Below are positions 5,549-39,555 of a stretch of 45,934 bases of DNA, piece by piece; position 1 is the stretch's first letter, and each line of letters opens with the position of its first letter. The stretch lies in the NCBI GenBank assembly GCA_005223125.1, contig NJBH01000001.1:1-45934 (forward strand). Direction: 5' to 3'. A program made the position numbers and the translations under genes. The stretch comes from Promethearchaeota archaeon Loki_b32 (GTDB lineage: Archaea > Asgardarchaeota > Lokiarchaeia > Sigyniarchaeales > SOKP01). The notes below the pieces were generated by a model. The model made no database searches. It was not told where the DNA came from and saw only the letters and a list, made by a program, of their open reading frames with translations.

Positions 5549-7006
5549 ATGAATAGTAGACCATTTGTTTCAGATTTAGATGATCTTAGAGGGGACGAGG
5601 GGTACCTTAGCGAGTCACTAAGTATTATCAAAAATTCTTACAATGTAGAGAACCCTTTAATCTCCGTTGTAATTCCTCTGTATAACGAAGAATTTTCCAT
5701 TAAAGATGTAATTGACAGGATTCCAAATCATAGATTACTAGAGATTATTATAGTTGATGATGGTTCTACTGACAAAGGCGTGAAGAAAGTCAAAGAAATT
5801 AAAGATATGGATATTAAAATAATTAAACATGAAAAAAATCAAGGCTATGGCGCAGCATTATTATCTGGTATTAGACATGCCACTGGAGATATTATCGTCA
5901 CAATGGATTCTGATGGCCAACATAATCCTGAAGAAATTCCTAATCTGATAAAACCAATTATTAATAACAAAGCTGATTTTGTTGTTGGATCAAGATATTT
6001 AGGTAAGTTTAATTATAAAAATCCTCTCTATGCTCGCGCAGGAGCATATTTTATAAGAATATTCTTTAGAATGTTATTTCTTCAAAGAGTACATGATAAC
6101 CTAAGTGGTTTTAGAGCTTTTAAGAAAGAAATCACTAAAATTTTAGGGAATATGCGATATACAGGAATGGGCTTTACTACAGAATTATTATATAAAGTCG
6201 CATTTTATCAATACAAAATTGTTGAAACTCCAGTTTACGTCAATCCCAGACAATATGGTATTTCTAGTATCAATCTTATAAGAGCTCTCATATCAATCTC
6301 TTCTTGTATCTTATATTATATTTTAAGAAAATTAACACATAAAATGCAATCGCTTAAAAGTAAATTCAATTTCAATCAAATTAGTAAAAGAGCTATTAAA
6401 AATTTTGAAATGTCTGATTTTAAAGCTAATGTTATTCCAAAAAATACATACATGTGGAGAGAACGTTCAAAATTCATAGAAGAAATTGAATCTAAAAGAG
6501 ATTATAAAATTGGCATAAATTCTAATATAAGACAACCAACTATTATTTATTCTGGAAATAGAATTAAAGAAAATTTTCAAACAGGACATTTTGTAACTAT
6601 CAGAGAAAATAATAAAATTGGAAATAATGTTAGTATTGGGTCTCATTCTAATATAGAACATCACGTTATCATTGAGGATAATGTTCGTATTCACTCTAAT
6701 TGTTTTGTTCCAGAATTTTCAATTCTGAAACATGATTGCTGGTTAGGCCCAAACGTTGTATTATGTAATACAAGATATCCTAAATCTATTGATGTAAAAA
6801 AGAATCTTGTTGGTCCAACTATACAGGAATATGCAATAATTGGAGCAAATTCTACGATTTCGTCCGGTGTCAAAGTTGGAAGACATGCTTTAATTGGTGC
6901 TGGTACAGTTGTTGTGAGAGATGTACAAGATTATGCGATTGTTACAGGGAATCCTGGAAAAAAAATAGGAGATGTAAGGAATCTTAATAAGTACAAGGAG
7001 GAGTAG
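5549..7006 (+). CDS. GT2 glycosyltransferase fused to left-handed beta-helix acetyltransferase
   Basis: Residues about 38-260 form a GT2 domain of the dolichyl-phosphate-mannose/polyprenyl-phosphate sugar synthase type (VIPLYNEE, VDDGSTD at 70-75, MDSDGQHNP at 119-127, then NLSGFRAF). Residues about 335-475 form a left-handed beta-helix of hexapeptide repeats (IGNNVSIGSHSNIE..VIIEDNVRIHSN..WLGPNVVL) ending in the canonical IGAGTVVVRDV...GNPGKKIG. The helix resembles WbpD/WlbB-type UDP-sugar 3-N-acetyltransferases. A linker of about 70 residues (270-335) joins them. With the neighbouring dehydrogenase and aminotransferase this suggests that one polypeptide both makes and transfers, or modifies, a diacetamido sugar. 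The ATG at 5549 is chosen, although the frame stays open upstream without a good start. The gene directly abuts the next GT2 gene. Confidence 0.85.
   Translation: MNSRPFVSDLDDLRGDEGYLSESLSIIKNSYNVENPLISVVIPLYNEEFSIKDVIDRIPNHRLLEIIIVDDGSTDKGVKKVKEIKDMDIKIIKHEKNQGYGAALLSGIRHATGDIIVTMDSDGQHNPEEIPNLIKPIINNKADFVVGSRYLGKFNYKNPLYARAGAYFIRIFFRMLFLQRVHDNLSGFRAFKKEITKILGNMRYTGMGFTTELLYKVAFYQYKIVETPVYVNPRQYGISSINLIRALISISSCILYYILRKLTHKMQSLKSKFNFNQISKRAIKNFEMSDFKANVIPKNTYMWRERSKFIEEIESKRDYKIGINSNIRQPTIIYSGNRIKENFQTGHFVTIRENNKIGNNVSIGSHSNIEHHVIIEDNVRIHSNCFVPEFSILKHDCWLGPNVVLCNTRYPKSIDVKKNLVGPTIQEYAIIGANSTISSGVKVGRHALIGAGTVVVRDVQDYAIVTGNPGKKIGDVRNLNKYKEE
6995..7003 (+). promoter_or_regulatory. Shine-Dalgarno site deciding a TTG start
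   Basis: AAGGAGGAG lies inside the last codons of the upstream gene, immediately before the TTG at 7007. It is the strongest ribosome-binding site I saw in the window and supports TTG 7007 over the in-frame ATG at 7073. Confidence 0.65.
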
Positions 7007-7840
7007 TTGTTTAGAGGATTTTCTAAAACTGTTCTATCTTACCATCATTATAAATTTAAAAAAAATTCAGGGATGTCTTATTTGGTTTATAAAGGAAAGA
7101 AAATTTCAATAACTATACCTGCTTATAATGAGGAGCGTTTAATAATTCCTACAATAATGGGAATTCCCGATTTTGTTGATAAAGTATTTGTAATAGATGA
7201 TGGGAGTAAAGATTTGACATCAGGTTTAGTTCAAAGATTAGACGATCCAAAAATAATTCTAATAAAATTAACTAAAAATCAAGGAGTTGGAAATGCAATC
7301 AAAATGGGTTATATAGCATCTTTACAACACAATATGGATATTGTAGCTGTAGTGGGCGCTGATCATCAATTTGATTTAGAACAATTGCCTTTATTATTAG
7401 ACCCAATTGTAAATGATGAAGCTGATTATACAAAGGGAAATCGATTCTTAGTCGATGCTAAAGAAGTAATGCCTAATAAAAGATATTTTGGAAATATTTT
7501 TCTTTCGATTCTAACAAGAATGGGATCAGGCGTTCATAAAATATTCGATACACAAGATGGATTTACTGCTATCTCAAGGAAAGTAATTGAAACAGTTGAT
7601 TGGGATCTTTTTTGGGACGGATATGGCTATGTATCTGATTTCATTATAAGAATTGCGGCTTATGGATTTCGTATTAAGGATGTTCCAAGAAGATCGATTT
7701 ATCTCGAAGGAGAAAAACAATCAAACATTGTTATTTCTAAATATATAAAGCGAAATTTATTCATGATATTAAAAGGATGGCTGTGGAGAATAATCCATCA
7801 AAGGAAGATTAAAAATAATCGAAAAGATAAAAAGCTTTAA
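7007..7840 (+). CDS. GT2 polyprenyl-phosphate sugar transferase-like protein
   Basis: This is a 277-residue GT2 enzyme. Visible motifs are ITIPAYNEE, VIDDGSKD, VVGADHQFD (DxD equivalent), the KGNRF step and DTQDGFTAI. The order is that of dolichyl/polyprenyl-phosphate mannose or glucose synthases. There is no C-terminal membrane segment; the C-terminus is basic (WRIIHQRKIKNNRKDKK). It would move a sugar from a nucleotide donor to a lipid phosphate at the inner membrane face. It starts with TTG directly after the stop of the preceding gene, backed by a strong Shine-Dalgarno, so the two are cotranscribed and probably coupled. The small membrane protein that follows may anchor it. Confidence 0.85.
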   Translation: MFRGFSKTVLSYHHYKFKKNSGMSYLVYKGKKISITIPAYNEERLIIPTIMGIPDFVDKVFVIDDGSKDLTSGLVQRLDDPKIILIKLTKNQGVGNAIKMGYIASLQHNMDIVAVVGADHQFDLEQLPLLLDPIVNDEADYTKGNRFLVDAKEVMPNKRYFGNIFLSILTRMGSGVHKIFDTQDGFTAISRKVIETVDWDLFWDGYGYVSDFIIRIAAYGFRIKDVPRRSIYLEGEKQSNIVISKYIKRNLFMILKGWLWRIIHQRKIKNNRKDKKL

Positions 7841-7853
7841 AATCGTTAGAGAA

Positions 7854-8165
7854 ATGATAAAAATGGCGAGTTTAATATTTAGAATAATTGTTAATTTCAT
7901 AATTGGAGGGTTGATATTTGTTTTCGGGTTAGCTTTTATCGGATCAATTCTTCTATTAATATTTAATAAAATATCATTAATTTTTCTAATCCCCTTTATT
8001 CCATTCTGGATCATTATTCTTCTTTTTGAAAGAGAATTTCTTTGGACTTTAATATTTTTGTTGAAAAAAGCACCATACAGTCATTTAAGTAAAACCTCAA
8101 GAAAACACGAAAAAATTTTAGAAGATTATTTAAAAACACAAAATAAGACAAAGGGAGAATCCTGA
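7854..8165 (+). CDS. Small membrane protein, possible GT2 partner
   Basis: A 103-residue protein with two long hydrophobic segments at about residues 8-37 and 41-58 and a charged C-terminal tail (SRKHEKILEDYLKTQNK). It begins 13 bp after the GT2 gene in the same direction. The GT2 enzyme lacks a membrane segment of its own, so a role as its membrane subunit (as with DPM2/DPM3 or GtrA-like partners) is plausible but inferred from position only. No family motif was recognised. An alternative start is the ATG at 7863. Confidence 0.6.
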   Translation: MIKMASLIFRIIVNFIIGGLIFVFGLAFIGSILLLIFNKISLIFLIPFIPFWIIILLFEREFLWTLIFLLKKAPYSHLSKTSRKHEKILEDYLKTQNKTKGES

Positions 8166-8251
8166 GGATTATTTTTAATCTTAATTTATCTGAGATTTAA
8201 TATTTATTTTTTATATATTCTATAATCTTTTTTAGATCTATCTATCATATT

Positions 8252-9259
8252 TTAAAAATAGATTCTCTCATTTTTTTCTGCTGAGAGTATTGCTTTTTCA
8301 CACATTCTTACTGCATTATATCCCACTAAACCATCTGAGTTTGGAGCTGTTCTAGTTTCAATACATTTAATAAAGTGAAGGATTTCTTGCTTCAAAGGTT
8401 CTTTATATTCGATAACGATCTTATGAATTCCATTATTATGCTTTTCGAAGATTACTTTATCATTAACTTTACTGCTCCTTATACTCGAATCAAATATTTG
8501 ATATTCAGACGGAGTAAGATAATTTACGTAGCCACTCTTTTCAGATCCAATTATTAGTAGTTCTCTTCGTTTACCATAAATAGGAATATTCCAACTTTCC
8601 ATTATATAACCTTTAGTATTATTATCGAAATTTAGAGATATGTTTGTTATTTCGGTAACTACTTCTTGATTAAACTTTCCATTATCTACTAAAATAGATT
8701 CTGGTTCCTTTTTATTTAATAAATAACATGTAAGATCAAGATCGTGAACTGCTAATGCTAATATTACACCCATATCTTTTTTAGGGACTCCTAACGCGAG
8801 TCTAAATGACAAAATCATTTGAATTTTTCCAAATTCACCAATATCCATTCTTTTTTTAATCTCTTCAACCGCAGGGTGATATCTGAAAAGATGACCAACC
8901 ATTAGGATTCTTCTTTTTTGTTTTGCTAAATCAATTAACTTCCTAGCATTATCAGATTTGAGAGTTATTGGTTTTTCCACAAATACATCCTTACCACTCT
9001 CTAAAGACAGTTTAGATAATTCATAATGAGTTGATGAGGGAGTAATAATCGCGACAGCAGTTATTTTATCGTCATTTAATAATTCCTTTATATTTGTTGT
9101 ATAATCTATTGAATTAATCTCAGAGATTTCTTTAACTCTCTCCTCATCAATGTCACAAATCTTTAAATAATCAATCTTTTTCTCAAAAAGTAGAGATTTA
9201 TAAATTGTTAAGTGATTCTTACCCCAATATCCCATTCCAACTATACCAATACCAACCAT
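8252..9259 (-). CDS. Gfo/Idh/MocA dehydrogenase, WbpB/WlbA-like
   Basis: This is a 335-residue NAD(P)-dependent oxidoreductase. It has an N-terminal Rossmann motif (GIVGMGYWGKNH), the family EKP motif (VFVEKPIT), a GHLFRYHP segment and the HDLDL active-site region. In the diacetamido-uronic acid pathway this family oxidises C3 of UDP-GlcNAc-uronate so that an aminotransferase can act. The exact substrate is inferred from the neighbour. Its ATG overlaps the stop of the aminotransferase gene by one base (TAATG at 9261-9257), so the two are translationally coupled. Transcription runs aminotransferase then dehydrogenase, convergent with the GT2 genes. Confidence 0.85.
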   Translation of the reverse strand: MVGIGIVGMGYWGKNHLTIYKSLLFEKKIDYLKICDIDEERVKEISEINSIDYTTNIKELLNDDKITAVAIITPSSTHYELSKLSLESGKDVFVEKPITLKSDNARKLIDLAKQKRRILMVGHLFRYHPAVEEIKKRMDIGEFGKIQMILSFRLALGVPKKDMGVILALAVHDLDLTCYLLNKKEPESILVDNGKFNQEVVTEITNISLNFDNNTKGYIMESWNIPIYGKRRELLIIGSEKSGYVNYLTPSEYQIFDSSIRSSKVNDKVIFEKHNNGIHKIVIEYKEPLKQEILHFIKCIETRTAPNSDGLVGYNAVRMCEKAILSAEKNERIYF

Positions 9260-10356
9260 TATAAATCCTCCATATATTCATTAATAGCCACTTTTATTCG
9301 GTCTAGCTCCTCATTAATTAATTGAGGAGATAATGGTAAGGAAACAATTTTATCAACAATCTCTTCCGTCACTCCTAATTTAGGTTGTATCCCGTATAAT
9401 TTTTGAATAATTGGTTGCCTGTGAACGGGGATTGGATAATAGATACCAGTTGCAATCTTCTTTTTATTAAAGTGTTCTATGAATGAACTTCTTTTTTCAA
9501 TTTGAATAGTATATACGTAATATGAACATTTTGCCCATTCTTTTTCGGAAGGAATCTTAACATTTGGGTATTTTTCGATTATCTCATTATAAAAATTAAC
9601 GATTTCCCTTCGTTTTTCAATCCATTCATCAAGATATTTTAATTGTTCTTTACCGATTACAGCTTGAATTTCGTTCAATCGGAAGTTTAAACCTAATAGC
9701 TCATTTTCATATTTAGATTTCCTACCGTGATCTCGCCTTAATTTCAATTCTTCACCATATTTCTCGTTATTTGTGACTATCATTCCCCCATCCCCACCAA
9801 CAGTCATATTTTTTGAGGGAAAAAAACTAAATACTCCAATATCTCCAAGTTTTCCTACCTTCTTTTCTTTATATTCTGCTCCATGAGCTTGACAACAGTC
9901 TTCAATGATTTTAATACTTTTTTCTTCAGCAATCTCCAACAGAGGATCCATATCCACAGGATGACCGTAAATATGAACAGGAACGATGCATTTGGTTTTT
10001 GGGGTGATTTCACTTTTTACTTTCTCAATATCCATACAATAAGTTTCGGGATCGATATCAACAAATACAGGTTTAACTTTAAAATATGCTAAAGGAGTCG
10101 CTGTTGCAATAAACGTATGAGAAGGAACGATAACCTCATCTCCCGGATTTAAATTTAATTCTTGGTAAGTTAAAAATAACGCCGCAGTTCCTGAAGATAC
10201 ACCTATAGCATATTTTGATCCAATATAATCTCTAAAAGATTCTTCAAAATGCCGTAAATTAGGTCCTTTAACATAATATCCACTATCAAGAACTTCTAGC
10301 ACAGCATTTTTAATATCTTGGTTCATATACATTTTACTTAACTTTATTTCGTCCAT
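9259..10356 (-). CDS. DegT/DnrJ/EryC1 sugar aminotransferase, WbpE/WlbC-like
   Basis: This is a 365-residue PLP enzyme with the family hallmarks: SSGTAAL near residue 54, PSHTFIATA, IEDCCQAHGA (Asp153 for the PLP ring nitrogen), and the Schiff-base lysine Lys182 in FFPSKNMTVGGDGG. The C-terminus has the usual TGIYYPIPVHRQP. It transfers an amino group from glutamate to a keto-sugar nucleotide. Coupling with the Gfo/Idh/MocA gene argues for 3-amination of a UDP-2-acetamido-3-keto-uronate. Other DegT products (4-amino sugars) remain possible. A 60-bp relic of a related gene sits at 11371-11430. Confidence 0.88.
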   Translation of the reverse strand: MDEIKLSKMYMNQDIKNAVLEVLDSGYYVKGPNLRHFEESFRDYIGSKYAIGVSSGTAALFLTYQELNLNPGDEVIVPSHTFIATATPLAYFKVKPVFVDIDPETYCMDIEKVKSEITPKTKCIVPVHIYGHPVDMDPLLEIAEEKSIKIIEDCCQAHGAEYKEKKVGKLGDIGVFSFFPSKNMTVGGDGGMIVTNNEKYGEELKLRRDHGRKSKYENELLGLNFRLNEIQAVIGKEQLKYLDEWIEKRREIVNFYNEIIEKYPNVKIPSEKEWAKCSYYVYTIQIEKRSSFIEHFNKKKIATGIYYPIPVHRQPIIQKLYGIQPKLGVTEEIVDKIVSLPLSPQLINEELDRIKVAINEYMEDL

Positions 10357-10590: not shown

Positions 10591-11370
10591 CTATGAATTT
10601 ATGAATTTAAGAATAAATTGATTTAAATCAATGAAATTTTTCAGACATCTATACGCCATTTCTTCTTTCTTTTTTTCATCTAAATTCACTAAATTATCAA
10701 GAATATTTATTGCTTCTAAGAAATTACTTGTTTTTCTGCATAATTCGTTATTTGAATTAAATTGCTCAAACAATAAACATTTTATAGGATTTATTACAAC
10801 ACTGGGTTTACCTAATATTAAAGCCTCTTGGGCAGTTGTAAACGCTTCTCCAATATAACCTGCTGAAAAAAATAAAAAATGGTGGAAGTCTCCTAATTTC
10901 CCTTTATATAATTTATTTTTCCATTTTTTACGTATTGGAAACTCAGAGGTGAGAAGTATCTCGTATTTTTCAGAAAGAATATTTAAAAATTTATTAATAT
11001 CGGGAATTCCTTTTTTACCAATATCATGAGTAGCATCCCAATCTATTAATCTCACCACAATAAATTTATTTGCATTTAATCCATATTTTCTGATTATTTC
11101 TGCATTAGGTTTGAAATATTTTGTGTTCAGATAAGTGTATTCTTGACAACCCTCATATTTGATATGTTTGGCACCATAAACTTTTAATGGAAACCACTTT
11201 GGAGTAAAAATAAAATTAGAAAAAAAACTTCAAAAATAAAATTGCTCAGGGGCGAAATCAATATCATTAAACCCTATATAAGTAATCCTTACAAATACCG
11301 AAGCAATACAGGCATAAACCGGAGAGATTCCTATTATATAATCATTTTCATCAAAATAAAAATATTTCAA
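10591..11370 (-). pseudogene. DUF354-type glycosyltransferase, 5'-truncated with in-frame TGA
   Basis: The intact 155-codon 3' part starts at 11058 (VRLIDWDATHD.GKKGI, then SAGYIGEAFTTAQEALILGKPSVV). It matches the second half of the DUF354 family of GT-B-like archaeal proteins. The same frame continues upstream with family-like sequence (YGAKHIKYEGCQEYTYL, then ISPVYACIAS and YIGFNDIDFAPEQ) but is interrupted by a TGA at 11230-11232. About 260 codons remain, compared with about 340-350 in the family, so the N-terminus is missing. It abuts a fragment of an aminotransferase gene. I read it as a decaying gene left by rearrangement. Confidence 0.7.
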
Positions 11371-11430
11371 GAAGGAATGTTAAGTTCATCTCCCGGATTT
11401 AAATTTAATTCTTGTTAAGCTAAAAATATC
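11371..11430 (-). pseudogene. Relic of a DegT-type aminotransferase gene
   Basis: These 60 bases align without gaps to 10121-10180 inside the functional aminotransferase gene. They share an uninterrupted 27-base block spanning the QELNLNPGDE codons (from about 10138 and 11388). The relic frame has a TAA where the intact gene has a Tyr codon and ends in a stop after NIPS. It is fused to the DUF354 relic, marking an old recombination junction. Confidence 0.65.
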
Positions 11431-13159: not shown

Positions 13160-15274
13160 ATGAAAAAAACTGTGGAAAGCAACAAAATATTGAAAGCGAT
13201 CGAACTCGTTTTCTCTGATATGACGACATATCTTTTCAAAAAATATAATTTATTGAACATCATTTTACCAAATTTGTTACACCAAATTTTACGAAGGATC
13301 ATCTTTTCGAAATTTTATAAAAAGAAAAAAATCATATTGAAAAATTCTTATAATTCAGAGAAATTTTTTGGTAATTTTTTTAAAGGCAAATTAGATTTTC
13401 AATATATTTGTAATGACTTCTTTGCCAAAACTTTTTTCTCCTACCCCATTTTAAGTGAAAAAAAGAAGATAATTTCGCTATTAAAAGAACTAAATGATAA
13501 TGAAATTAGAAGTTATATAGACTATGCTGATGAAATAATAGATAATAAATTTAAAATTTTTGAAAAAAATCATCACTTCAGGAACGATATTGATTGGCAC
13601 TTTAGTTTTTTTGGAGATTATTCGTTTGATATTAATGCTTCTGAAAAATTAAATTACTTCGGGTTTTCCAATAATAATGAGTTAATTGATGTAAAATATG
13701 TTTGGGAATTTAATAGACACCAATTTTTACACTACTTAGGTATAGCTTATTATATTACTAACAATGAAAAATATTCTTACAAATATAGAGATTTAATTCT
13801 TGATTGGATCAAAAAAAATCCCCCCTTATTTGGTGTTAATTGGGCTTCCGGTTTAGACATTTCAATTAGATTAAACACATGGATTTTCTCATTATGGTTT
13901 TTTAAAGATTCGAAATTAGTTAATAATAGAATGTTTTTTGAGAAGATTTTCAAAAGTATGTTCCAACATGCTTATTATTTAAGATTTTTTTATACAAGAT
14001 ATTCTTTTAATCATACAGTAGGAGACTTATTTGGTGTATATCTGTTCTCAAAGGTCTTTAATAACTTAAATCCATTAAAAAAATGGGAAAAAAAATTTTT
14101 TGAGAAATTCAGAAAACAAATTTTCTTTCAAACTAGATCAGATGGCGTTAATATAGAACAATCTATTAATTATCATCGATTTGTTTTGGAATTCTTTACC
14201 CTTTTTGTAATTTTGGACAAAAAAAAAATGTATCAAAAAGAGTTAAACCGGATTGAAAAGATGTTTGACTTTTTAATATATACCATAAAACCTGATATGA
14301 ATTTTCCTGTAATTGGTGATTCTGATGATGGTTCTATCTTACCATTAAATTTTTATCGAAAGAATAAGTTTAATGATTTAATTAATTTAAGCTCAATCCT
14401 TTTTACTCGTAGCGATCTAAAATACATTTCAAAAGACATCTCTGTTATTTCCTTACTATTTTTAGGTTATGAAGGATATAACAAATTTATAAATTTATTG
14501 ATAAAAAAACCTAAATATAAGTATCATTTTTTTAAAAAATCGGGTTATATAACTTTTCGAGACTCTTGGTCTAAAAAGGCTAATTACTTATTTCTTGATT
14601 ATGGTAAATTTGGCCCTCTACACGCATCTCATTCTCATAGTGGTATTACAAATCTAGTATTATCAATAAACGGTAAAGATCTTTTAATAGATTCTGGAAC
14701 TTTTACATATAATAAATCATGGGAAATAAGAAATTTATTTAGAAGTAGTAAAGCACATAATGTTCTTTCTATCAATTCAAAAAATCAAGCTGACATTGTT
14801 AATTGGTGGATGTGGAAAAATAAACCGAAATTAAAGAGGATTTTAACTAAAAAAGAAAATAATTACTATTTTTCTTGCTACCACAATGGATATAAAAACT
14901 TTATTATATATCGTAAAGTTATTGTCCCCGTGGATTTTAAGGAATTAAAAATAATAGATGAGATCATCAAGGAAGATCTGAAAGCAAATGAGATAGAAAG
15001 CTCTAGAAATGTTTTTGATATCTTTTTTCATTTTGATAATAAAAATAAAATTGAATTAAGGGAAAATAGAATTTTAATTAATTCTAATTTAATTATGAAA
15101 TTTAAAGCAAATAGGGATTTCTCACTTTCTTTAATTGATACTTATTATTCTCTTAATTATGGTGTTAAAATACCCAATAAAAGCTTAAGGATCTGTATTA
15201 ACGAGGAAAAATGGAACGATGAAAGAATTAAGATTTACACAAAATTGGAATATTTAAATAATTCGTTTGATTGA
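13160..15274 (+). CDS. Heparinase II/III family protein, copy 1
   Basis: A 704-residue protein with an alpha/alpha toroid N-terminal domain (IDWHFSFFG, then VKYVWEFNRHQFLHYL at about 178-192) and a C-terminal beta-sandwich (SHSHSGITNLVL, IDSGTFTYN, SSKAHNVLSIN). The Asn-Tyr-His set used by heparinase III-type lyases is present: Asn284 in SFNHTVGD, Tyr338 in INYHRF, and His491/His493. No signal peptide is seen, so it is predicted cytosolic. That suits a biosynthetic or lipid-linked-glycan role better than degradation of external polymer. Similar proteins occur in bacterial exopolysaccharide loci beside GT4, MDR/Gfo and WecB genes. A paralogue is at 21013-23031. Confidence 0.85.
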   Translation: MKKTVESNKILKAIELVFSDMTTYLFKKYNLLNIILPNLLHQILRRIIFSKFYKKKKIILKNSYNSEKFFGNFFKGKLDFQYICNDFFAKTFFSYPILSEKKKIISLLKELNDNEIRSYIDYADEIIDNKFKIFEKNHHFRNDIDWHFSFFGDYSFDINASEKLNYFGFSNNNELIDVKYVWEFNRHQFLHYLGIAYYITNNEKYSYKYRDLILDWIKKNPPLFGVNWASGLDISIRLNTWIFSLWFFKDSKLVNNRMFFEKIFKSMFQHAYYLRFFYTRYSFNHTVGDLFGVYLFSKVFNNLNPLKKWEKKFFEKFRKQIFFQTRSDGVNIEQSINYHRFVLEFFTLFVILDKKKMYQKELNRIEKMFDFLIYTIKPDMNFPVIGDSDDGSILPLNFYRKNKFNDLINLSSILFTRSDLKYISKDISVISLLFLGYEGYNKFINLLIKKPKYKYHFFKKSGYITFRDSWSKKANYLFLDYGKFGPLHASHSHSGITNLVLSINGKDLLIDSGTFTYNKSWEIRNLFRSSKAHNVLSINSKNQADIVNWWMWKNKPKLKRILTKKENNYYFSCYHNGYKNFIIYRKVIVPVDFKELKIIDEIIKEDLKANEIESSRNVFDIFFHFDNKNKIELRENRILINSNLIMKFKANRDFSLSLIDTYYSLNYGVKIPNKSLRICINEEKWNDERIKIYTKLEYLNNSFD

Positions 15275-21012: not shown

Positions 21013-23031
21013 ATGAATTTTTTAAGAGCTCGAAAATCCCTTAATATATCTAAAATTATTGAAAAAATAGAAAATAAAATTAGAAAGATTTTACTTTTTA
21101 AATATTATAATAAAAAACGCGAAATTATTAGAAAATCAGGTATTTCTGATGAATTCTTTTGGAGAATGCTTGGCTCCCCGAAGATATCTGATATTCGTAA
21201 TCTTTTCTTTAATAACAATATTTTTGCTTATTCTAACAAAGAAGAGAAAGAAAAAATTATTGAGTGCTTAAAAAATAACTGTTCCAGAGAGATTAATGAT
21301 TATCTTAATTTTGCTGACAAAGTTATCAGAAAGGAATTTGATATTTTTGAAAAAACTCACATATTTGATGAAAAAATTGATTGGCATTATAGCTTTTTCA
21401 ACGGTTTTAGATGGAAATTACAAAAATCAGAGAAGATGGATATACGTCCTAAAGATAAACAAGTTGATGTAAAATATACTTGGGAATTTAATCGACATCA
21501 ATTTCTGATATATTTAGGTTTTACATTTTATTATACAAAAAATGAAAGATATGCCAAAGAGTTTAAAAATGTAATATCAGACTGGATAAAAAGTAATCCT
21601 CCCTTATACGGGATAAACTGGTATTCTGGATTAGAAATATCAATTCGATTGATATCTTGGATTTATGCATTATATTTTTTTGAAGATTCTATAGAAATAA
21701 ATAATGATCAGTTTTTTAAGAAAATATTTGTATCAATGTCTCAACACGCGTTTTATCTAAAATATTTTTATACTCGCTGTTCATTTAACCATACTATTGG
21801 AGATTTATTTGGTGTATACTTATTTTCTAAAATCTTTGACCATATTAATCCCTTCAAAAAATGGGAGAAAATTTTTTATATAAAATTTAAAAGACAAATT
21901 TTTCTACAAACTCGACCTGATGGGACAAATATAGAACGATCTGTTAATTATCATAGATTCGTCTTAGAATTTTTTTCTCTTTTTATGATTTTAAACCCTA
22001 ATAAGTTGAAAGGAGAAGAATTGAAACTGATTGAAAAAATGTACAATTATTTATTATATATAATTAAACCTAATGGTACTTTTCCATTAATTGGTGATTC
22101 TGATAATGGAAAAGTCCTATTACTAACATTTCATAAAAAAGATTCTTTTATTGATCTAATTAATTTAGGTTCCATCTTATTTCAAAGAGGAGATTTAAAG
22201 TTTCACTCAAGTAAATTACTACCTCCCTCAATTTTACTACTAGGCTCTAAAAATTTTGAAATTTATAATAATCTTAAAATTATAAAGCCTAATACAAAAT
22301 TGAAATATTTTAACGATGCAGGATATTTTCTAATAAAAAATAATTGGACTAGTAAAGCAAATTATTTATTTATTGATTTAGGCAGATTTGGAGCACGAAA
22401 TGCAGGACATTCGCACAGCAGCATTACTAACATTATTTATTCTTATAAGGGAAAAAATATAATTACTGATTCAGGTACTTATACTTATAATAAATCATGG
22501 GAAGAAAGGAATTATTTTCGTAGTAGTAAAGCTCATAATGTATTAACTATAAATAATCAAAATCAGGCTATGATTAAATCATGGTTTTCTTGGGAGAACA
22601 AACCAAGAGTTAAAAGTATTATCAATATCCAGAATAATAAAATTGAATTGGGATGTTATCATAATGGTTATAAAGGATTCAGTATTAAAAGGAACATAAT
22701 TACTAATAGAGACTTAAACAATATACTCATTAAAGACACTGTAATACGATCTCAAGAGATTCAAGATGAAGAAATTTTTGATATAAAAATATATTATCAT
22801 TTTAGTAGAGGACTCAACATATCCCTTGAAAATAATATTGTAAATATAGATAATGAGATATTGTTGAAAGTCTCATCTTCATTTGATTTTAATGTTCAAA
22901 TCGATAAATCGCTATATTCACCTAATTATGGAGAAAAATATGAAAACTCCCTCCTTAATATATCTTCAAACCACTCGTTCAAGCAAAATGCAATATTTGA
23001 AATTCTAATAGAAATAAAAAATATTAAATAG
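21013..23031 (+). CDS. Heparinase II/III family protein, copy 2
   Basis: This 672-residue paralogue of the 13160-15274 protein is alignable over nearly its full length (IDWHYSFFNGFRW, VKYTWEFNRHQFL, SFNHTIGDLFGVYLF, SVNYHRFVLEFFSLF, GHSHSSITN, ITDSGTYTYNKSWEERN). The Asn, Tyr and His positions expected at the active site are kept. No signal peptide is seen. It sits between a GT4 gene and the two-domain oxidoreductase gene, the association common in bacterial glycan loci. Copy 1 sits beside a GT4 gene only. Both probably act on the glycan or its intermediates; a lyase or epimerase-like activity is inferred, not shown. Confidence 0.87.
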   Translation: MNFLRARKSLNISKIIEKIENKIRKILLFKYYNKKREIIRKSGISDEFFWRMLGSPKISDIRNLFFNNNIFAYSNKEEKEKIIECLKNNCSREINDYLNFADKVIRKEFDIFEKTHIFDEKIDWHYSFFNGFRWKLQKSEKMDIRPKDKQVDVKYTWEFNRHQFLIYLGFTFYYTKNERYAKEFKNVISDWIKSNPPLYGINWYSGLEISIRLISWIYALYFFEDSIEINNDQFFKKIFVSMSQHAFYLKYFYTRCSFNHTIGDLFGVYLFSKIFDHINPFKKWEKIFYIKFKRQIFLQTRPDGTNIERSVNYHRFVLEFFSLFMILNPNKLKGEELKLIEKMYNYLLYIIKPNGTFPLIGDSDNGKVLLLTFHKKDSFIDLINLGSILFQRGDLKFHSSKLLPPSILLLGSKNFEIYNNLKIIKPNTKLKYFNDAGYFLIKNNWTSKANYLFIDLGRFGARNAGHSHSSITNIIYSYKGKNIITDSGTYTYNKSWEERNYFRSSKAHNVLTINNQNQAMIKSWFSWENKPRVKSIINIQNNKIELGCYHNGYKGFSIKRNIITNRDLNNILIKDTVIRSQEIQDEEIFDIKIYYHFSRGLNISLENNIVNIDNEILLKVSSSFDFNVQIDKSLYSPNYGEKYENSLLNISSNHSFKQNAIFEILIEIKNIK

Positions 23032-23100: not shown

Positions 23101-25296
23101 ATGAAGAAGTTATTTATTAATAAACAAGGAAAAGTTGTGCTAAAAGAGGTAAGAGAGCCATTAATCGAAACAAAGGGATCTTTAGTAAGAACTAAATTTG
23201 CCTTAATTAGTTCAGGTACAGAATTATCAACGATTAAGGAAATTAGATTTCGAAGTTTATCGCTTATCAAGAAAATTAGAACATCAAAAGATTATCGTAA
23301 GTTGTTATTTTCCGAATTAAAGAACAGAGGTATTAAAGAGGCAATAAAATTTACTAAACTTCTTTTATTCAAGAGGAATGATAAAAAAAATTTTTCCAGT
23401 CCTTCCATAAATTTATTTCCTATAGGCTATAGTTGTTCTGGAATCGTTCAAGAAACAAATATTGACAATTTAAAAGTTAATGATAGAGTAGCATGTGGCG
23501 GTTCAAATCATGCCGAAATAATATATTCTCCAAAAAATCTTACTTGTAAAATTCCAAAAAATGTAAGCTTTGAGGAAGCTGCATTTGCTACATTAGGAGC
23601 AATAGCCCTACATGGAATTCATCGTGCAAACATAAAACTAGGAGAAAATGTAGGCGTAATAGGGACAGGTTTAATAGGATTACTCGTTGTTCAACTAATT
23701 AAGGTAATCGGAGGAAGAGTTTTTGCTTTAGACTTAATTAATAAAAGATTAAATCTTGCTAAAGAATTAGGAGCAGATTTTATATTTAATCCCAAATATT
23801 ACAACTCAGAACGGAAGGTTTCTAAATTTACTGATGGGAAAGGATTGGATTCTATAATTATCTGTGCTACATCAAAATCTCCAAAACTTTTAGAAGATGC
23901 TGTTGATTTGATTCGTGATAAAGGAAATATAATAATGTTAGGAGGATTTCCTATAAATATAAACCGTGCCAAACTATATTACAAAGAGGTAGATTTACTT
24001 ATCTCAAGATCTTATGGTCCAGGACGGTATGATAATTATTATGAGTATGAAGGATATGATTATCCTGAAAAGTATGTACCTTGGACAGAAAAACGAAATA
24101 TGGAATTTGTTTTAAAATTAATTTCAGAAAAGAAATTAAATGTTAAGAGATTAATTACTGACATTATTCCTGTTGAAAAAGCGAATACCGCTTATAATAA
24201 ATTGGAAAAAGACCCAATTAACACTATTGCAATTTTATTAAAATTCTTTAAAGATGATGGTAGTATAAAAATTATTAAAGATCAAATAAAAGAAAAAGAA
24301 ATTTCTAAAAAATTAATTATTGGACTCATTGGATGTGGTTCATTTGCTCAGGGCTCACATTTACCCCACTTATTATCTAACCCAAACTGTAAAATAAAAG
24401 GGATCTCTACCCAGCATAATTCTTCTGCGAATTATTGTAAGGAAAATTATCATCCAGAGTTTGTGACTACTGATTATAAAAAAATTCTTAAAGATCCAGA
24501 AATTGAGACTGTATTTATTTATACTAGACATAATACTCATAAAAAATTTGCAATTAAGGCATTAAAAGCCGGTAAGAATGTATTTGTTGAAAAACCTATG
24601 GGAATTACATATGATCAATGTGTTAATGTTTATAATACTGTTAAAGAAACCAAAAAGTTGTATTCCATAGGATTCAATCGACGATACAGTTCTTTAATAC
24701 AAATATCTAAAGGATTATTAAAGGATAGAACTAATCCAATAATTATAAATTATAGAATTGCTAATAGTTTTATCCCTGGACATCATTGGATTTTTGATCC
24801 GAATGAAGGCGGTGGACCAATAATAGGGGAATTTTGCCATTTTGTTGATTTAGTTTTATATTTAATTAATTCTTCTCCAATTGAATTAATAGCAAAAGGG
24901 GGTTCTCTCAGCCATAAAAATCTAGATGTTTTTGACAGTTGTACAGTTATTATTAAATTCAAAAATGCTTCTCTTGCTAATCTTGTTTACACCGATCTAA
25001 ATGCTCCAGATATGCCAAAAGAGAGAATTGAAATTTTTTCTGGAGAATCATCAATAATAATAGACTCCTTTAAAACAATGCAAATTGGGGGTTTTGATGC
25101 AGGAAATAAATTTTTAAGTGAGCCAGATAAAGGACATGAAAAAGAGATGAAGACAATAGTTAATTCTAATTTAGGATTAGAAAAATTGTTAGTAAATGAA
25201 ACTGATGCTATAAGGGCAATGGATCTATGCTTTAAAACAATCGAATCTATAAAAAAAAATAAGAGTATTAATATCGAAAGCGAATTTTATGAATGA
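23101..25296 (+). CDS. Two-domain oxidoreductase (MDR fused to Gfo/Idh/MocA)
   Basis: A 731-residue fusion. Residues about 1-380 are a medium-chain dehydrogenase (NDRVACGGSNHAE, FATLGAIALHGIHRA, GVIGTGLIGLLVVQL as the Rossmann loop). It lacks the usual GHE zinc motif. Residues about 398-731 are a Gfo/Idh/MocA domain (IGLIGCGSFAQGSHL, VFVEKPMG, GFNRRYS, GGGPIIGEFCHFVDL). This fixed fusion is known from bacterial polysaccharide clusters next to heparinase-like and GT4 genes, as here. The substrate is unknown; a nucleotide-sugar or glycan uronate redox step is likely. The gene is 69 bp after the heparinase-like gene and 29 bp before asnB, so probably one operon. Confidence 0.87.
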   Translation: MKKLFINKQGKVVLKEVREPLIETKGSLVRTKFALISSGTELSTIKEIRFRSLSLIKKIRTSKDYRKLLFSELKNRGIKEAIKFTKLLLFKRNDKKNFSSPSINLFPIGYSCSGIVQETNIDNLKVNDRVACGGSNHAEIIYSPKNLTCKIPKNVSFEEAAFATLGAIALHGIHRANIKLGENVGVIGTGLIGLLVVQLIKVIGGRVFALDLINKRLNLAKELGADFIFNPKYYNSERKVSKFTDGKGLDSIIICATSKSPKLLEDAVDLIRDKGNIIMLGGFPININRAKLYYKEVDLLISRSYGPGRYDNYYEYEGYDYPEKYVPWTEKRNMEFVLKLISEKKLNVKRLITDIIPVEKANTAYNKLEKDPINTIAILLKFFKDDGSIKIIKDQIKEKEISKKLIIGLIGCGSFAQGSHLPHLLSNPNCKIKGISTQHNSSANYCKENYHPEFVTTDYKKILKDPEIETVFIYTRHNTHKKFAIKALKAGKNVFVEKPMGITYDQCVNVYNTVKETKKLYSIGFNRRYSSLIQISKGLLKDRTNPIIINYRIANSFIPGHHWIFDPNEGGGPIIGEFCHFVDLVLYLINSSPIELIAKGGSLSHKNLDVFDSCTVIIKFKNASLANLVYTDLNAPDMPKERIEIFSGESSIIIDSFKTMQIGGFDAGNKFLSEPDKGHEKEMKTIVNSNLGLEKLLVNETDAIRAMDLCFKTIESIKKNKSINIESEFYE

Positions 25297-25325: not shown

Positions 25326-27278
25326 ATGTGTGGAATTGCGGGGATATACGGTCTCGAAGATAAATTACTTTTAAAAAAGATGCTAAAATGCATAAAATAC
25401 AGAGGCCCTGATGATCAAGGATTATATATTGGTGATAATCTATCCATAGGACATGTGAGATTAAGTATTATAGACCTTACAGAAGCTGGACGAAATCCAT
25501 TATTTAACGAAGATGGTTCTATTTTTGTTGCATTTAATGGAGAAATCTATAATTTCCGGGATTTGCGTGATGAGTTAATGAAAATGGGCCATAAATTCCA
25601 ATCAAGAACAGACACAGAAGTTATAGTTCATGCTTATGAAGAATGGGGAATGGATTGTGTTAAAAAATTCAATGGTATGTTTGCCTTTGCTCTGTTTGAT
25701 ATTAACAAAAAAAAATTATATCTATGTAGAGATCAATTCGGAATTAAGCCACTGTTTTATTCCACTCAAGGAGAATTATTCTTTTTTGCTTCAGATATAA
25801 AAGCTCTAATTGAAAGTGGTTATATTAAATCTGAAATAAATAAACTTGGATTATATTATTGTTTATCATTCTTTAGTACTCCTAGCCCTTATACCATATA
25901 TAAAGGAATAAAAAAATTACCTCCAGGTTATTATCTAGAGATAGATTTCAAAAAGAAAATAAAAATAACAAAATATTATGATATAAACGATCTACCAAAT
26001 AATTTTCAATATGATTTTGATCTTATTGTTAAGAAAGGTGAACTTTTATTAAGAGAATCAATAGATAGAATGAGATATTCTGATGTTCCTCAAGGTGTTT
26101 TTTTAAGTGGTGGGATTGATTCAAGTACAATTGTTGCCTTATTGGATGAAATGGAATCTCAACCAATTGAAACATTTTCTATTGGAATAGAGGGTTATGG
26201 TGAACAATATAATGAACTTAAATGGGCACAGATTATTCATGAAGAATTTAATACAAATCATCATGAATATTTTATCAGACCTGATGAATTACCAAATTTA
26301 TTACAAGAATATTTAAATCAACAATATGATTTTATAGCAGATCCTGCAAACATACTCACATATCAACTCTCGAAAGAAGCGATAAGAAATAAAGTTAAAG
26401 TAGTTCATGTAGGGGAAGGAGCTGATGAAATCTATTGTGGATATCAAGTTTATTTTAAAATCTTGAATAGCTTTACTAAGCAATATTTATATTTTAAATT
26501 ACACCATATCCTAAAAAGCGCAATAAATCTCTATTTAAAAAGTGGAATTGATTTATTTAAGAAAATAATAGGAAGGAAATCTAATTATTTGAATTTCATC
26601 TATACAAAAACAGGAACTTTAGAGAGACTAAATGAGGATACTTTAATTCCAGTAAGGGGTATAATGGGATTTTCGGAGGTAGATAAGGAAAATATTCTAA
26701 GACAAGAAGGAATTCCTTCAAAAAATTCAATATATCATATTTATAACATTTTAAAACAATTAAATAGAAATTCTAAAGGATTAAGTGCTAAAGAATCACA
26801 TTTTCAAGATATGCGTTATTTAGAGTTTAAATTAAGACTTCCAGAATTAATTTTAATGAGGGTCGACTTTAATACAATGTTATCCTCAATTGAAGCACGT
26901 GTTCCCTTTTTTGATAAGCACTTATTAGAATTTAATTTATCTTTATGTCCACCAATAAAAATACATTATAATGATAAGATCTCTAAATATATATTAAAGA
27001 AAATTATGAAAGACAAATTACCTAAAGAAACTTTAAATCGTAAAAAAATAGGGTTAACTACTCCAGTATCTTGGAAAAAATCTTTAGATTTTTCTCATCT
27101 AATAGAATCTGAATTCTCGAGAAGTTATCTAAAAAAATACTTTAGAGAAGATTTTTTAGAAAAGATTGTAAAAAATAGAAGTTATAGAATGAATTTCCCT
27201 CAACTTAAAATATGGCAAATCTTAAATTTTTGCTTCCTGTATCGAAAAGTAATTTTAAAAGAAAAAATAATCTTATAG
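25326..27278 (+). CDS. asnB: Asparagine synthase (glutamine-hydrolysing) homologue
   Basis: A 650-residue class II amidotransferase. The glutaminase domain has the processed-Cys start MCGIAGIYG, RGPDDQG, HVRLSIIDL, FNGEIYN and RTDTEV, all intact. The synthetase domain has the pyrophosphate loop FLSGGIDSSTIV and GEGADEIYCGY. In glycan loci such proteins often amidate uronic acids (WbpS-like) instead of making asparagine. Given the uronate-type sugar genes nearby I favour that, but a metabolic AsnB is possible. It lies 29 bp after the two-domain oxidoreductase gene and 21 bp before a degenerate dehydrogenase-like gene. Confidence 0.9.
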   Translation: MCGIAGIYGLEDKLLLKKMLKCIKYRGPDDQGLYIGDNLSIGHVRLSIIDLTEAGRNPLFNEDGSIFVAFNGEIYNFRDLRDELMKMGHKFQSRTDTEVIVHAYEEWGMDCVKKFNGMFAFALFDINKKKLYLCRDQFGIKPLFYSTQGELFFFASDIKALIESGYIKSEINKLGLYYCLSFFSTPSPYTIYKGIKKLPPGYYLEIDFKKKIKITKYYDINDLPNNFQYDFDLIVKKGELLLRESIDRMRYSDVPQGVFLSGGIDSSTIVALLDEMESQPIETFSIGIEGYGEQYNELKWAQIIHEEFNTNHHEYFIRPDELPNLLQEYLNQQYDFIADPANILTYQLSKEAIRNKVKVVHVGEGADEIYCGYQVYFKILNSFTKQYLYFKLHHILKSAINLYLKSGIDLFKKIIGRKSNYLNFIYTKTGTLERLNEDTLIPVRGIMGFSEVDKENILRQEGIPSKNSIYHIYNILKQLNRNSKGLSAKESHFQDMRYLEFKLRLPELILMRVDFNTMLSSIEARVPFFDKHLLEFNLSLCPPIKIHYNDKISKYILKKIMKDKLPKETLNRKKIGLTTPVSWKKSLDFSHLIESEFSRSYLKKYFREDFLEKIVKNRSYRMNFPQLKIWQILNFCFLYRKVILKEKIIL

Positions 27279-30952: not shown

Positions 30953-32050
30953 TTAGAGATTTAATTTCTCTTTTAGCACTTTTACAATTCTTTTTGAAGC
31001 CCGACCATCCCAATATTCAATATTTTTACCATTCTTGTATTTACTGGTAAAAATTTCTTCTATATGTCTTTTGGCTTTATCAATATCACGTCCGATTATT
31101 GTGTTAGTACCTTCTTCTACAGTCACAGGCCTTTCAGTTCCCATTCTAGCTGTTAGAACTGGAATTTTCAAATACGAAGCTTCTTCTTGAATCCCTCCCG
31201 AATCGGTAAGAATTAATTTTGAGTTCGTCATTAAGTTCAGAAATTCTAAATAACCAATTGGGTGAGATAAAACAATATTTAAATCTTTAATATTTTTTTC
31301 AAGATCGAATTTTTCGAGATTTTTTTTAGTGCGGGGATGTATAGGGAAAAAAACCTTGATTTTTTCTTGTAAAAAATTAAGTATATTCAACATTTTTTCC
31401 AAGTTCTCTTTAGTATCGACGTTAGAAGGGCGGTGCAAAGTAATTAATGCATAATCGTTCTTTTTCAAATTATACTTATCGAGCAAATTCAATTCTTTTG
31501 CTTTTTCGAGATTCATAATCAAAACATCAATCATAATATTTCCTACAAAAAAGATCTTATCTGAGCTAATACCCTCTCTTTTTAAATTAATCACTGCACT
31601 TTTCTCGGTAGTAAATAAGAAATCTGAAATTTGATCAGTTAGCAACCTGTTAATTTCTTCGGGCATCTCCATATTGAAGCTTCTTAATCCTGCTTCAATA
31701 TGAGCTACTTTAATATGTAGTTTTTTTGCTACTAAAGCGCATGCCAATGTAGAGTTAACGTCTCCAACAACAACTACTAATGATACTTTTTCTCTTACCA
31801 ATACTTTTTCAAATTCAATCAATATTTTGGCGGTTTGTACAGCGTGAGATGCAGAACCTATATTAAGATGAATATCTGGTTCGGGGATTCCAAGATCGTC
31901 AAAAAATACTTTTGACATATTATAATCGTAATGCTGACCAGTATGAATTAGTTTAAATTTAATTTTTTCTTTCTTGAATTCTTTAATCAAAGGAGCAATT
32001 TTCATAAAATTAGGTCTTGCTCCAACCACCAGATAAATTAGTTTCGGCAT
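30953..32050 (-). CDS. wecB: UDP-N-acetylglucosamine 2-epimerase (non-hydrolysing)
   Basis: A 365-residue enzyme of full family length. Motifs are VGARPNFMK, HTGQHYDYNMS, VVGDVNST, HIEAGLR, MPEEINR, LHRPSNVD and LTDSGGIQEEA...RMGTERPVTVEEG. It interconverts UDP-GlcNAc and UDP-ManNAc. Close relatives (WbpI/WlbD) act on UDP-GlcNAc(3NAc)A, giving the manno form; with the dehydrogenase, aminotransferase and acetyltransferase in this locus that alternative is attractive. It is in an apparent minus-strand operon: GT-C gene, wecB, SDR relic, flippase. Confidence 0.93.
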   Translation of the reverse strand: MPKLIYLVVGARPNFMKIAPLIKEFKKEKIKFKLIHTGQHYDYNMSKVFFDDLGIPEPDIHLNIGSASHAVQTAKILIEFEKVLVREKVSLVVVVGDVNSTLACALVAKKLHIKVAHIEAGLRSFNMEMPEEINRLLTDQISDFLFTTEKSAVINLKREGISSDKIFFVGNIMIDVLIMNLEKAKELNLLDKYNLKKNDYALITLHRPSNVDTKENLEKMLNILNFLQEKIKVFFPIHPRTKKNLEKFDLEKNIKDLNIVLSHPIGYLEFLNLMTNSKLILTDSGGIQEEASYLKIPVLTARMGTERPVTVEEGTNTIIGRDIDKAKRHIEEIFTSKYKNGKNIEYWDGRASKRIVKVLKEKLNL

Positions 32051-37674: not shown

Positions 37675-39555
37675 GTGAATAATTACAAAATCGCCTTAAG
37701 AGTTGAAATTATGAGCGGTATTTGCGGATTTAATAGAGAAAATAAGAACCTTTTAAAGTTAATGTTGGGATCCATAAAACATCGAGGTCTCGATGATGAA
37801 GGTTTATATCTTGATACTGATTTATCTATTGGAATAAGAATTGCACTATTAAAAAGTAGTACATCAAAACAACCAATACATAATGAAAATGAGGATATAT
37901 CGCTTGTATGTGATGGGGAAATTTACAATTATTTAGAACTAAAAACGGACTTAGAGAAAAAAGGTCATAATATTAACACTGATATTAGTTCTGAAATAAT
38001 AATTCATGCTTACGAAGAATGGGGCGAAGAATGTTTTGATAAGTTTCGAGGTGTTTTTAGTTTATGTTTATATGATTCAAGAAAACATTTACTTATTTTG
38101 GCGAGAGATCATATTGGTATTAGGACACTCTATTATTATTTCGATGGGGAAATATTCATATTTGGTTCAGAGATAAAATGTTTATTCCATCATAATATAA
38201 AAAGAGAAATTTATAAAGAAGGTTTTAGCCAATATCTTTCACTTCGATATGTACCCTTTGATAAAACATTATTTAAAGGAATTAAACGAGTGCCAAATTC
38301 AAGTTATTTAAAATTTGATTTAAAAACTAAACAATTAGAGATTAAGAGATACTGGGATTTTAGAATTAAGGTGAATAAAGAAAAATCAGAAGCTCAATTT
38401 ATTCAAGAATTAAAAAATTTAATAATTAATAGTGTAAAAGTTCGCTTAGTCAAGGACATGCCAATTGGTGCATTCTTATCAAGCGGTATTGATTCGTCTT
38501 TAGTTGTAGGTGTATTAAGTAGTTTAATTGATAAGCCTATAAAAACATTTTCAGTAAGATTTGAAGAAGGTGCTCCGGTAAATGAAACCAAACTTGCTCA
38601 AATCGTTGCAGAAAGAAATGGTACTGACCATACAGAACTACTTATAAAATCAGATATTGTTGATGTTATACCTAATATTTCTTGGTATAATGATGATTTA
38701 TTTGCTGATGCGGCAATTATACCACTTTATTTGATGGGAAAGCAGGCTAAAGAACATTTAAATCTAGTCTTTACAGGAGACGGTGCTGATGAGGTTTTTG
38801 CGGGATATTCAGTATATTACCGAGGTCAATATATCAAATATCCAAAATTCTTGCCTCGAACAGTAATAAACTTAAGTAAGAAATTTAATAACTACATCCC
38901 CTTTCAAAGATTTCGAATGGGAATTAATTATCTTGATTGCACTAAAAGTTTATATGACCAATATATGAGAGGAATATTCATAATTTCTGATTTAGAGAAG
39001 AATAATGTTATTCCTTATAAAGCTCAAAAAGTTGAGCTACTAATAAGAAAGACATTTCAAAAAGACTTGGATGTTATTAATCAATTTACAAAATGGGATT
39101 TAAAATATCAATTACCAAGTCAATATAATGTAAAGGTTGATAGGGCACTTTCAGCAGCTTCTTTAACAGGAAGAATACCATTATTAGATAGAGATATTGT
39201 TGCATGGTCATTAACGATTCCGTCTAACTTAAAGCTGAAGGGAAATATTGAAAAATATATTCTGAGAATGGCAATGAAAGATTATGTACCTTCAGAAATT
39301 ATAAAAAGAAAGAAGTTAGGATTTAGTACACCAATTAATCTTTGGCTCAACAAGGGATTAAGAGAAATATCAGGAGACCTTTTAGACAGACTATCAAAAA
39401 GAATCAAGCTAATCAAACCGAAATATGTGAAATTTATTAAAAAACGGCGCTTAAATCGATTATTTGAATCACAAGCATGGAGCTTAATTATGTTTGAATT
39501 ATGGTATGAGACATTTATAGAGAATGATGGATTAAATCCTATAAACCTATATTAA
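37675..39555 (+). CDS. Asparagine-synthetase-like protein lacking the catalytic N-terminal Cys
   Basis: A protein of 614 residues from the preferred ATG at 37711 (626 from GTG 37675). The synthetase half is typical (FLSSGIDSSLVVGVL, FTGDGADEVFAGY, LGFSTPINLWL). The glutaminase half aligns end to end with the neighbouring AsnB but is eroded at key points: the start is MSGICG, so the nucleophile position after Met is Ser; RGPDD reads RGLDD; NGEIYN reads DGEIYN. Glutamine hydrolysis is therefore doubtful; a free-ammonia route or an amide-bond-forming role like beta-lactam-synthetase relatives is possible. It is next to a methyltransferase and a GT4 gene, suggesting glycan modification. Confidence 0.85.
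   Translation: MNNYKIALRVEIMSGICGFNRENKNLLKLMLGSIKHRGLDDEGLYLDTDLSIGIRIALLKSSTSKQPIHNENEDISLVCDGEIYNYLELKTDLEKKGHNINTDISSEIIIHAYEEWGEECFDKFRGVFSLCLYDSRKHLLILARDHIGIRTLYYYFDGEIFIFGSEIKCLFHHNIKREIYKEGFSQYLSLRYVPFDKTLFKGIKRVPNSSYLKFDLKTKQLEIKRYWDFRIKVNKEKSEAQFIQELKNLIINSVKVRLVKDMPIGAFLSSGIDSSLVVGVLSSLIDKPIKTFSVRFEEGAPVNETKLAQIVAERNGTDHTELLIKSDIVDVIPNISWYNDDLFADAAIIPLYLMGKQAKEHLNLVFTGDGADEVFAGYSVYYRGQYIKYPKFLPRTVINLSKKFNNYIPFQRFRMGINYLDCTKSLYDQYMRGIFIISDLEKNNVIPYKAQKVELLIRKTFQKDLDVINQFTKWDLKYQLPSQYNVKVDRALSAASLTGRIPLLDRDIVAWSLTIPSNLKLKGNIEKYILRMAMKDYVPSEIIKRKKLGFSTPINLWLNKGLREISGDLLDRLSKRIKLIKPKYVKFIKKRRLNRLFESQAWSLIMFELWYETFIENDGLNPINLY

Follow-up and report, generated by a model that had tools for sequence, protein, structure and literature searches.

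A glycosyltransferase fused to a beta-helix N-acetyltransferase beside a conserved dehydrogenase–aminotransferase pair in a lokiarchaeal glycan locus

The window analysed here, a stretch of 45,934 nucleotides from Promethearchaeota archaeon Loki_b32 (assembly GCA_005223125.1, contig NJBH01000001.1, positions 1 to 45,934 of the forward strand), encodes at positions 5549–7006 a single open reading frame (ORF) in which a family 2 glycosyltransferase (GT2) is fused to an N-acetyltransferase (NAT). The fusion lies next to genes for a Gfo/Idh/MocA dehydrogenase (DH) and a DegT/DnrJ/EryC1 aminotransferase (AT). With moderate confidence we propose, as the best explanation of the whole, that this ORF encodes a working two-domain enzyme whose acetylated sugar product is loaded by its own GT2 domain. 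The window is part of contig C18 of a 4.13 Mb genome that is 95.5 % complete, and the host is a lokiarchaeon whose nearest relatives are Lokiarchaeota metagenome-assembled genomes (MAGs). Coordinates of all features are compiled in Table 1.

A Pfam profile search of the fusion ORF placed PF00535 at residues 39–196 (E 1e-35), followed by hexapeptide repeats (PF00132, best stretch 356–387, and PF14602 at 430–455). The AlphaFold2 model contains two confident domains, the GT2 at about residues 36–262 and a beta-helix at about 316–475, and the NAT half therein combines the repeats and the fold of left-handed beta-helix acetyltransferases. The linker at around residues 287–310 was modelled with low confidence, and the predicted template modelling score (pTM) of 0.56 indicates that both domains are held without a fixed relative orientation. 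The structures most similar to the GT2 half are ArnC, dolichyl-phosphate mannose synthase and GtrB, and a DXD motif is present. The hydrophobic and amphipathic first part of the long helix that closes this domain is likely to contact the membrane surface, while a clear membrane span is absent.

The same fusion was found in the independent MAG Lokiarchaeota YT1_007 (G007, JAEOTA010000081) as an ORF of 532 amino acids, sharing 74 % identity in the GT2 and 84 % in the NAT domain; its linker is homologous but exceeds that of Loki_b32 by 47 amino acids. The presence of a GT2 and a beta-helix acetyltransferase in one polypeptide, which the initial annotation had read from the letters of a single genome, is thus confirmed by the open frame, Pfam, the two-domain model and a second species. 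As simple Nei–Gojobori estimates between the two fusions, the ratios of nonsynonymous to synonymous substitution (dN/dS) amount to 0.24 for the GT2, 0.23 for the NAT and, over a short stretch of 52 codons, 0.90 for the linker. Both halves are hence under purifying selection, whereas the linker is near-neutral and almost free to change. Synonymous divergence from G007 (L033) is 0.57 for the fused GT2 and 0.18–0.23 for DH, AT and the second GT2 gene of the locus, GT2b; this raised value may reflect gene conversion with paralogues. The idea that the NAT is also expressed by itself, from a start codon inside the ORF, was rejected, as there is no conserved start just before this domain: the Loki_b32 fusion has ATG at positions 266, 288 and 302 of the protein, and the G007 fusion an ATG at 270 only, the counterpart of 266, besides two TTG codons.

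Since an independent MAG carries it as well, the fusion is not an accident of assembly. That it would be an assembly error or the decaying read-through of two genes is hardly credible to us, as the second copy has another linker length and both halves are under selection, even though a neighbouring gene in the Loki_b32 genome is indeed broken. This DUF354 or GT-B-like gene (10594–11376, minus strand) has an intact counterpart of 336 amino acids in G007, whose residues 76–336 match at 81 %, and an ORF of 155 amino acids is left of it. The fusion is rare: a NAT within a frame of more than 400 amino acids occurs in only two of 228 genomes of the phylum (G000 and G007), and among the 45 NAT loci of the genome collection, which were gathered by a scan seeded with two short peptides that may miss distant fusions, that of G007 is the only one. 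A search for the origin of the linker among the collected loci returned the two fusions alone, and no NAT relatives were found on viral contigs.

The sequence match of the NAT is closest to QdtC (PDB 3fs8) with 3e-43 and 48 % identity over the aligned domain, compared to 4e-21 for WlbB, and its best matches with a stated function, QdtC at 2.5e-41 and WlbB at 3e-20 in this ranking, are acetyltransferases of 3-amino sugars, which supports the corresponding part of the initial annotation. Its more specific designation as WbpD/WlbB-like did not hold. In the tree, WlbB, WxcM, 7s3u and L150 are separated from the clade of the Loki_b32 NAT with a support of 100/99, while the latter is joined to QdtC itself only weakly (87/41). 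WlbB clusters with L150, a Bacillota operon encoding all five Wbp-type steps in the order 6-dehydrogenase, C3-dehydrogenase, NAT, aminotransferase and 2-epimerase. The active-site stretch points the same way, reading IHSNCFVPEF..CWLGP in Loki_b32, IHSNVFVGEK..VWLFP in QdtC and IQNNVSVYDN..VFCGP in WlbB. The residues H123, H134, E141, N159 and D160, which we take to be those of the QdtC active site, correspond to H371, H382, E389 and N407, all retained, and to T408 in place of the aspartate. By its sequence, the NAT belongs to a subfamily distinct from WlbB, and the branch that parts it and QdtC from WlbB has full support.

The genes for DH and AT overlap by one base, and both converge on the plus-strand run that contains the fusion. 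In the PDB ranking of the AT, 7b0d comes first and QdtB second, followed by other sugar aminotransferases and, lower, WbpE. The best of ten models for the DH was NF040723, archaeal UDP-GlcNAc 3-dehydrogenase, with 203.5 bits, below its cut-off of 450, compared to 123 bits for the inositol model. Its PDB profile matches are led by 7bvj, presumably GnnA of Acidithiobacillus ferrooxidans; inositol dehydrogenase 4hkt comes next, and 3q2i, presumably WlbA, ranks lower. A grouping with inositol-type enzymes, which the initial annotation had named as speaking against its proposal, is not seen in the tree, where the DH falls into a clade of 18 rows, mostly dehydrogenases of the same three-gene set, with a support of 100/98 and apart from the inositol enzyme 3ezy; assignment as an inositol enzyme was rejected on this placement. 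In 34 of the 45 NAT loci, a related DH and AT lie no more than two genes away from the NAT, on the same strand in 33; these and the other neighbourhood counts are lower bounds, as each locus was trimmed to 6 kb or stopped where its contig did. The survey spans Lokiarchaeota, Thorarchaeota, Heimdallarchaeota, Borrarchaeota, Woesearchaeota, Thermoplasmata, methanogens, Chloroflexi, Daviesbacteria, Nitrospirae and others. AT and DH as pathway partners of the NAT, as initially supposed, are well borne out by this linkage.

Which sugar this triad produces can be narrowed down from published pathways and from the genome. UDP-GlcNAc is converted to UDP-ManNAc3NAcA by the successive action of WbpA, B, E, D and I (PMC10622841), whereas GnnA and GnnB produce UDP-GlcNAc3N without oxidation at C6 (PMC7663294). 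The neutral UDP-2,3-diacetamido-2,3-dideoxyglucose would be the simpler product for the Loki_b32 triad than the acid. The alternative, close to the uronic acid proposed in the initial annotation, is a Wbp-type pathway to UDP-2,3-diacetamido-glucuronic acid that is channelled to the fused GT2. The M. maripaludis acetyltransferase MMP0350, required for a GlcNAc3NAcA residue (PMC2952790), argues in its favor, as do the archaeal relatives L118, L121, L126 and L128, which make up four of the five NAT loci (out of 45) with a 6-dehydrogenase nearby, in their case a UDP-sugar 6-dehydrogenase. We nevertheless consider it improbable, since the NAT falls outside the WlbB clade, whose namesake goes with the five-step operon L150, and since the linker is variable and disordered. 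Moreover, the genome contains one typical NDP-sugar 6-dehydrogenase, encoded on contig C64, which is of the UDP-ManNAc type only (NF040825 as best specific model, 326 bits, below its cut-off of 750), and none is linked to the triad; the second PF03721 match, on contig C67, is weak and lies in an ORF of 323 amino acids unlike an NDP-sugar 6-dehydrogenase. The type of the DH itself fails as a discriminator between neutral and uronic products, given that the Wbp-type operon L150 also has a short, triad-related dehydrogenase. The UDP-GlcNAc 2-epimerase noted at the outset in the same locus is a true member of the WecB family within the same cluster, but it lies about 20 kb from the triad and shows no sign of a tie to it. 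With QdtC as best PDB match of the NAT and QdtB second for the AT, a dTDP-3-amino-3,6-dideoxy sugar as in the QdtC system might also be envisaged; this we hold to be very unlikely, as a search of the genome for the FdtA/QdtA ketoisomerase (PF05523) returned no match, which argues against a dTDP sugar, and as the Gfo/Idh/MocA dehydrogenase takes the place of the ketoisomerase in the conserved triad.

Whether the fused GT2 itself uses the NAT product is a question to which we give an even chance. A sizeable minority share of our confidence goes to the alternative that the diacetamido sugar is the substrate of GT2b together with the small membrane protein encoded behind it, with the fused GT2 acting on some other sugar and the fusion serving only as membrane tie and for co-expression. 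GT2b orthologues with at least 57 % identity are present in only four of the 228 genomes of the phylum (G000, G007, G081 and G118), each of them also encoding this NAT, and in G081 NAT, GT2b and the small protein form one gene run; the Woesearchaeote L112 has one more orthologue close to its triad. This distribution tied to the NAT suggests that GT2b is the older genetic partner, the fused GT2 being a later recruit. GT2b and the small protein with its two hydrophobic segments might form a two-part polyprenyl-phosphate transferase; in G118, a small protein of 117 amino acids adjoins GT2b. In GT2b, GADHQ takes the place of the DSDGQ found in most relatives of the fused GT2. Three observations weigh against our proposal: in this NAT subclade it is GT2b, and not the fused GT2, that is conserved alongside the NAT; the fused GT2 has many relatives throughout its genus, family and order, where the triad dehydrogenase is found in only six of 79 genomes; and a model of the NAT alone superposes poorly on solved structures, with TM-scores of 0.3–0.4 that were too low to discriminate between QdtC and WlbB, for which purpose the model was dropped. 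The GT2b alternative is in turn countered by the retention of the fusion under selection, which normally signals related functions, and by G030, where the triad occurs without a GT2b match and the gene next to the NAT encodes a GT2 of the fused type. In favour of our proposal, separate GT2 genes directly adjoin the NAT in eight loci from different lineages; four of these belong to Methanosarcinales, where the GT2 gene immediately precedes the NAT on the same strand. Cousins of the fused GT2 in G013 and G015 of the same genus are joined to a second GT2 (L034:10724–12370, 548 amino acids, and L035:10895–12574, 559 amino acids). Channelling between the fused domains, as initially suggested, is weak in light of the conserved GT2b and of a linker that is flexible, near-neutral and of different length in G007; such a flexible tether argues for proximity and not for a closed channel.

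The gene orders of relatives suggest how the fusion may have come about. G030 has AT, DH and NAT on one strand, with a stand-alone NAT of 171 amino acids. In G081, DH, NAT, GT2b and the small gene follow each other on one strand, then a convergent membrane-protein gene; its NAT of 175 amino acids is encoded by an ORF that opens three bases past the stop codon of the dehydrogenase. In G007, AT and DH are followed, on the other strand, by the small gene, GT2b and the fusion, and beyond these by a membrane-protein gene homologous to that of G081. The stand-alone, same-strand arrangement of the NAT, near-universal elsewhere, is most likely ancestral. An inversion of the segment NAT–GT2b–small would convert the order of G081 to that of G007 and thereby make the start of the NAT face a new neighbour, now the GT2 in frame. 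We infer from gene order, which dates no event, that the segment was inverted out of an old AT–DH–NAT operon and ended up downstream of, and in frame with, a GT2 gene from a family of Asgard paralogues.

In the proposed biosynthesis, DH would oxidise C3 of what is most likely UDP-GlcNAc, AT would add an amino group at this position and the NAT would acetylate it to give UDP-2,3-diacetamido-2,3-dideoxy-glucose, or perhaps a form of it oxidised at C6. The fused GT2, predicted to be of the polyprenyl-phosphate type and probably held on the membrane by its C-terminal helix, would then most likely transfer the sugar made beside it onto a lipid carrier. Beta-helix NATs are usually trimers. With the flexible tether, a NAT trimer would carry three GT2 domains. 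Taken to its full extent, this would describe an archaeal acetylate-and-load enzyme with a trimeric C3-NAT and three tethered GT2s of the dolichyl-phosphate type that accept the acetylated sugar only, born by inversion in an Asgard glycan locus, a picture we put forward only tentatively.

Table 1. Features of the fusion locus and its cluster in the Loki_b32 window.
Feature	Coordinates	Strand	Remarks
GT2–NAT fusion ORF, 485 amino acids	5549–7006	+	One open frame, zero ambiguous bases
GT2 domain, residues 36–262	5654–6334	+	Motifs VDDGSTD (69–75), DSDGQH (120–125), SGFRAF; dN/dS 0.24
Long helix, residues 243–286	6275–6406	+	First part hydrophobic and amphipathic, peak 1.76 at 241–259
Linker region, residues 263–314 (helix end and disordered stretch)	6335–6490	+	dN/dS 0.90
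NAT domain, residues 315–485	6491–7003	+	H371, H382, E389, N407 retained; dN/dS 0.23
Second GT2 gene (GT2b)	7007–7840	+	Conserved with NAT in G007, G081, G118
Protein of 103 amino acids, two hydrophobic segments	7854–8165	+	Paired with GT2b in G007, G081; no Pfam match
Gfo/Idh/MocA dehydrogenase (DH)	8252–9259	-	Best model UDP-GlcNAc 3-dehydrogenase
DegT/DnrJ/EryC1 aminotransferase (AT)	9259–10356	-	Top PDB matches 7b0d, QdtB, other sugar aminotransferases
WecB-type UDP-GlcNAc 2-epimerase	30953–32050	-	TIGR00236, 348.8 bits (cut-off 210)

Further along the glycan cluster, the window contains a pair of heparinase II/III-like genes (13160–15274, with PF07940/PF16889, and 21013–23031, similar by eye), an ORF of 731 amino acids (23101–25296) that apparently begins with an alcohol-dehydrogenase-type domain and continues with one of the Gfo/Idh/MocA type and two ORFs that by eye resemble asparagine synthase of the AsnB type (25326–27278 and 37675–39555). 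A DDE transposase gene (PF01609, 43209–44720) lies near the end of the cluster.

Both the pathway and the logic of the fusion are already known from other systems, and what sets the present protein apart is the domain order, the type of transferase, the predicted position of acetylation and the host. ArnC, dolichyl-phosphate mannose synthase and GtrB, the top structural matches of the GT2 half, carry transmembrane helices, whereas in Loki_b32 a single amphipathic helix is followed by the NAT. QdtC shares the active-site signature with the NAT as its best sequence match, but it is a stand-alone and longer protein of 273 amino acids whose substrate is a dTDP sugar formed by way of a ketoisomerase. 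FdtD (4mzu) is likewise a bifunctional NAT, with a ketoisomerase as partner according to the structure title. The succession of C3-dehydrogenase, C3-aminotransferase and N-acetyltransferase is shared with WbpB–WbpE–WbpD (WlbA/WlbB) and MMP0350 (PMC10622841, PMC2952790); compared to the Wbp system, the Loki_b32 NAT is of the other subfamily and fused to a GT2, with neither a 6-dehydrogenase nor a 2-epimerase linked. In mimivirus L142, an N-acetyltransferase is also joined to a predicted GT2 that was proposed to use its product, both being separate genes in some isolates (PMC10117803), but there the domain order is reversed, the acetylated sugar is viosamine (Vio4NAc) and the protein is that of a virus. 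Beyond naming a sugar step for an Asgard surface-glycan locus, the findings present DH–AT–NAT as a three-gene marker of 3-acetamido sugars that is widely conserved among archaea and uncultured bacteria. A counterpart in function is Neisseria PglB, in which one protein both finishes a UDP-diacetamido sugar as N-acetyltransferase and loads the polyprenyl carrier (PMC6959607, PMC11130364). PglB employs a phosphoglycosyltransferase, and its acetylation targets a trideoxy sugar at the 4-amino group, while Loki_b32 has a GT2 of PF00535; the lokiarchaeal fusion would represent the same solution built from other parts, with intermediate gene orders still seen in its relatives.

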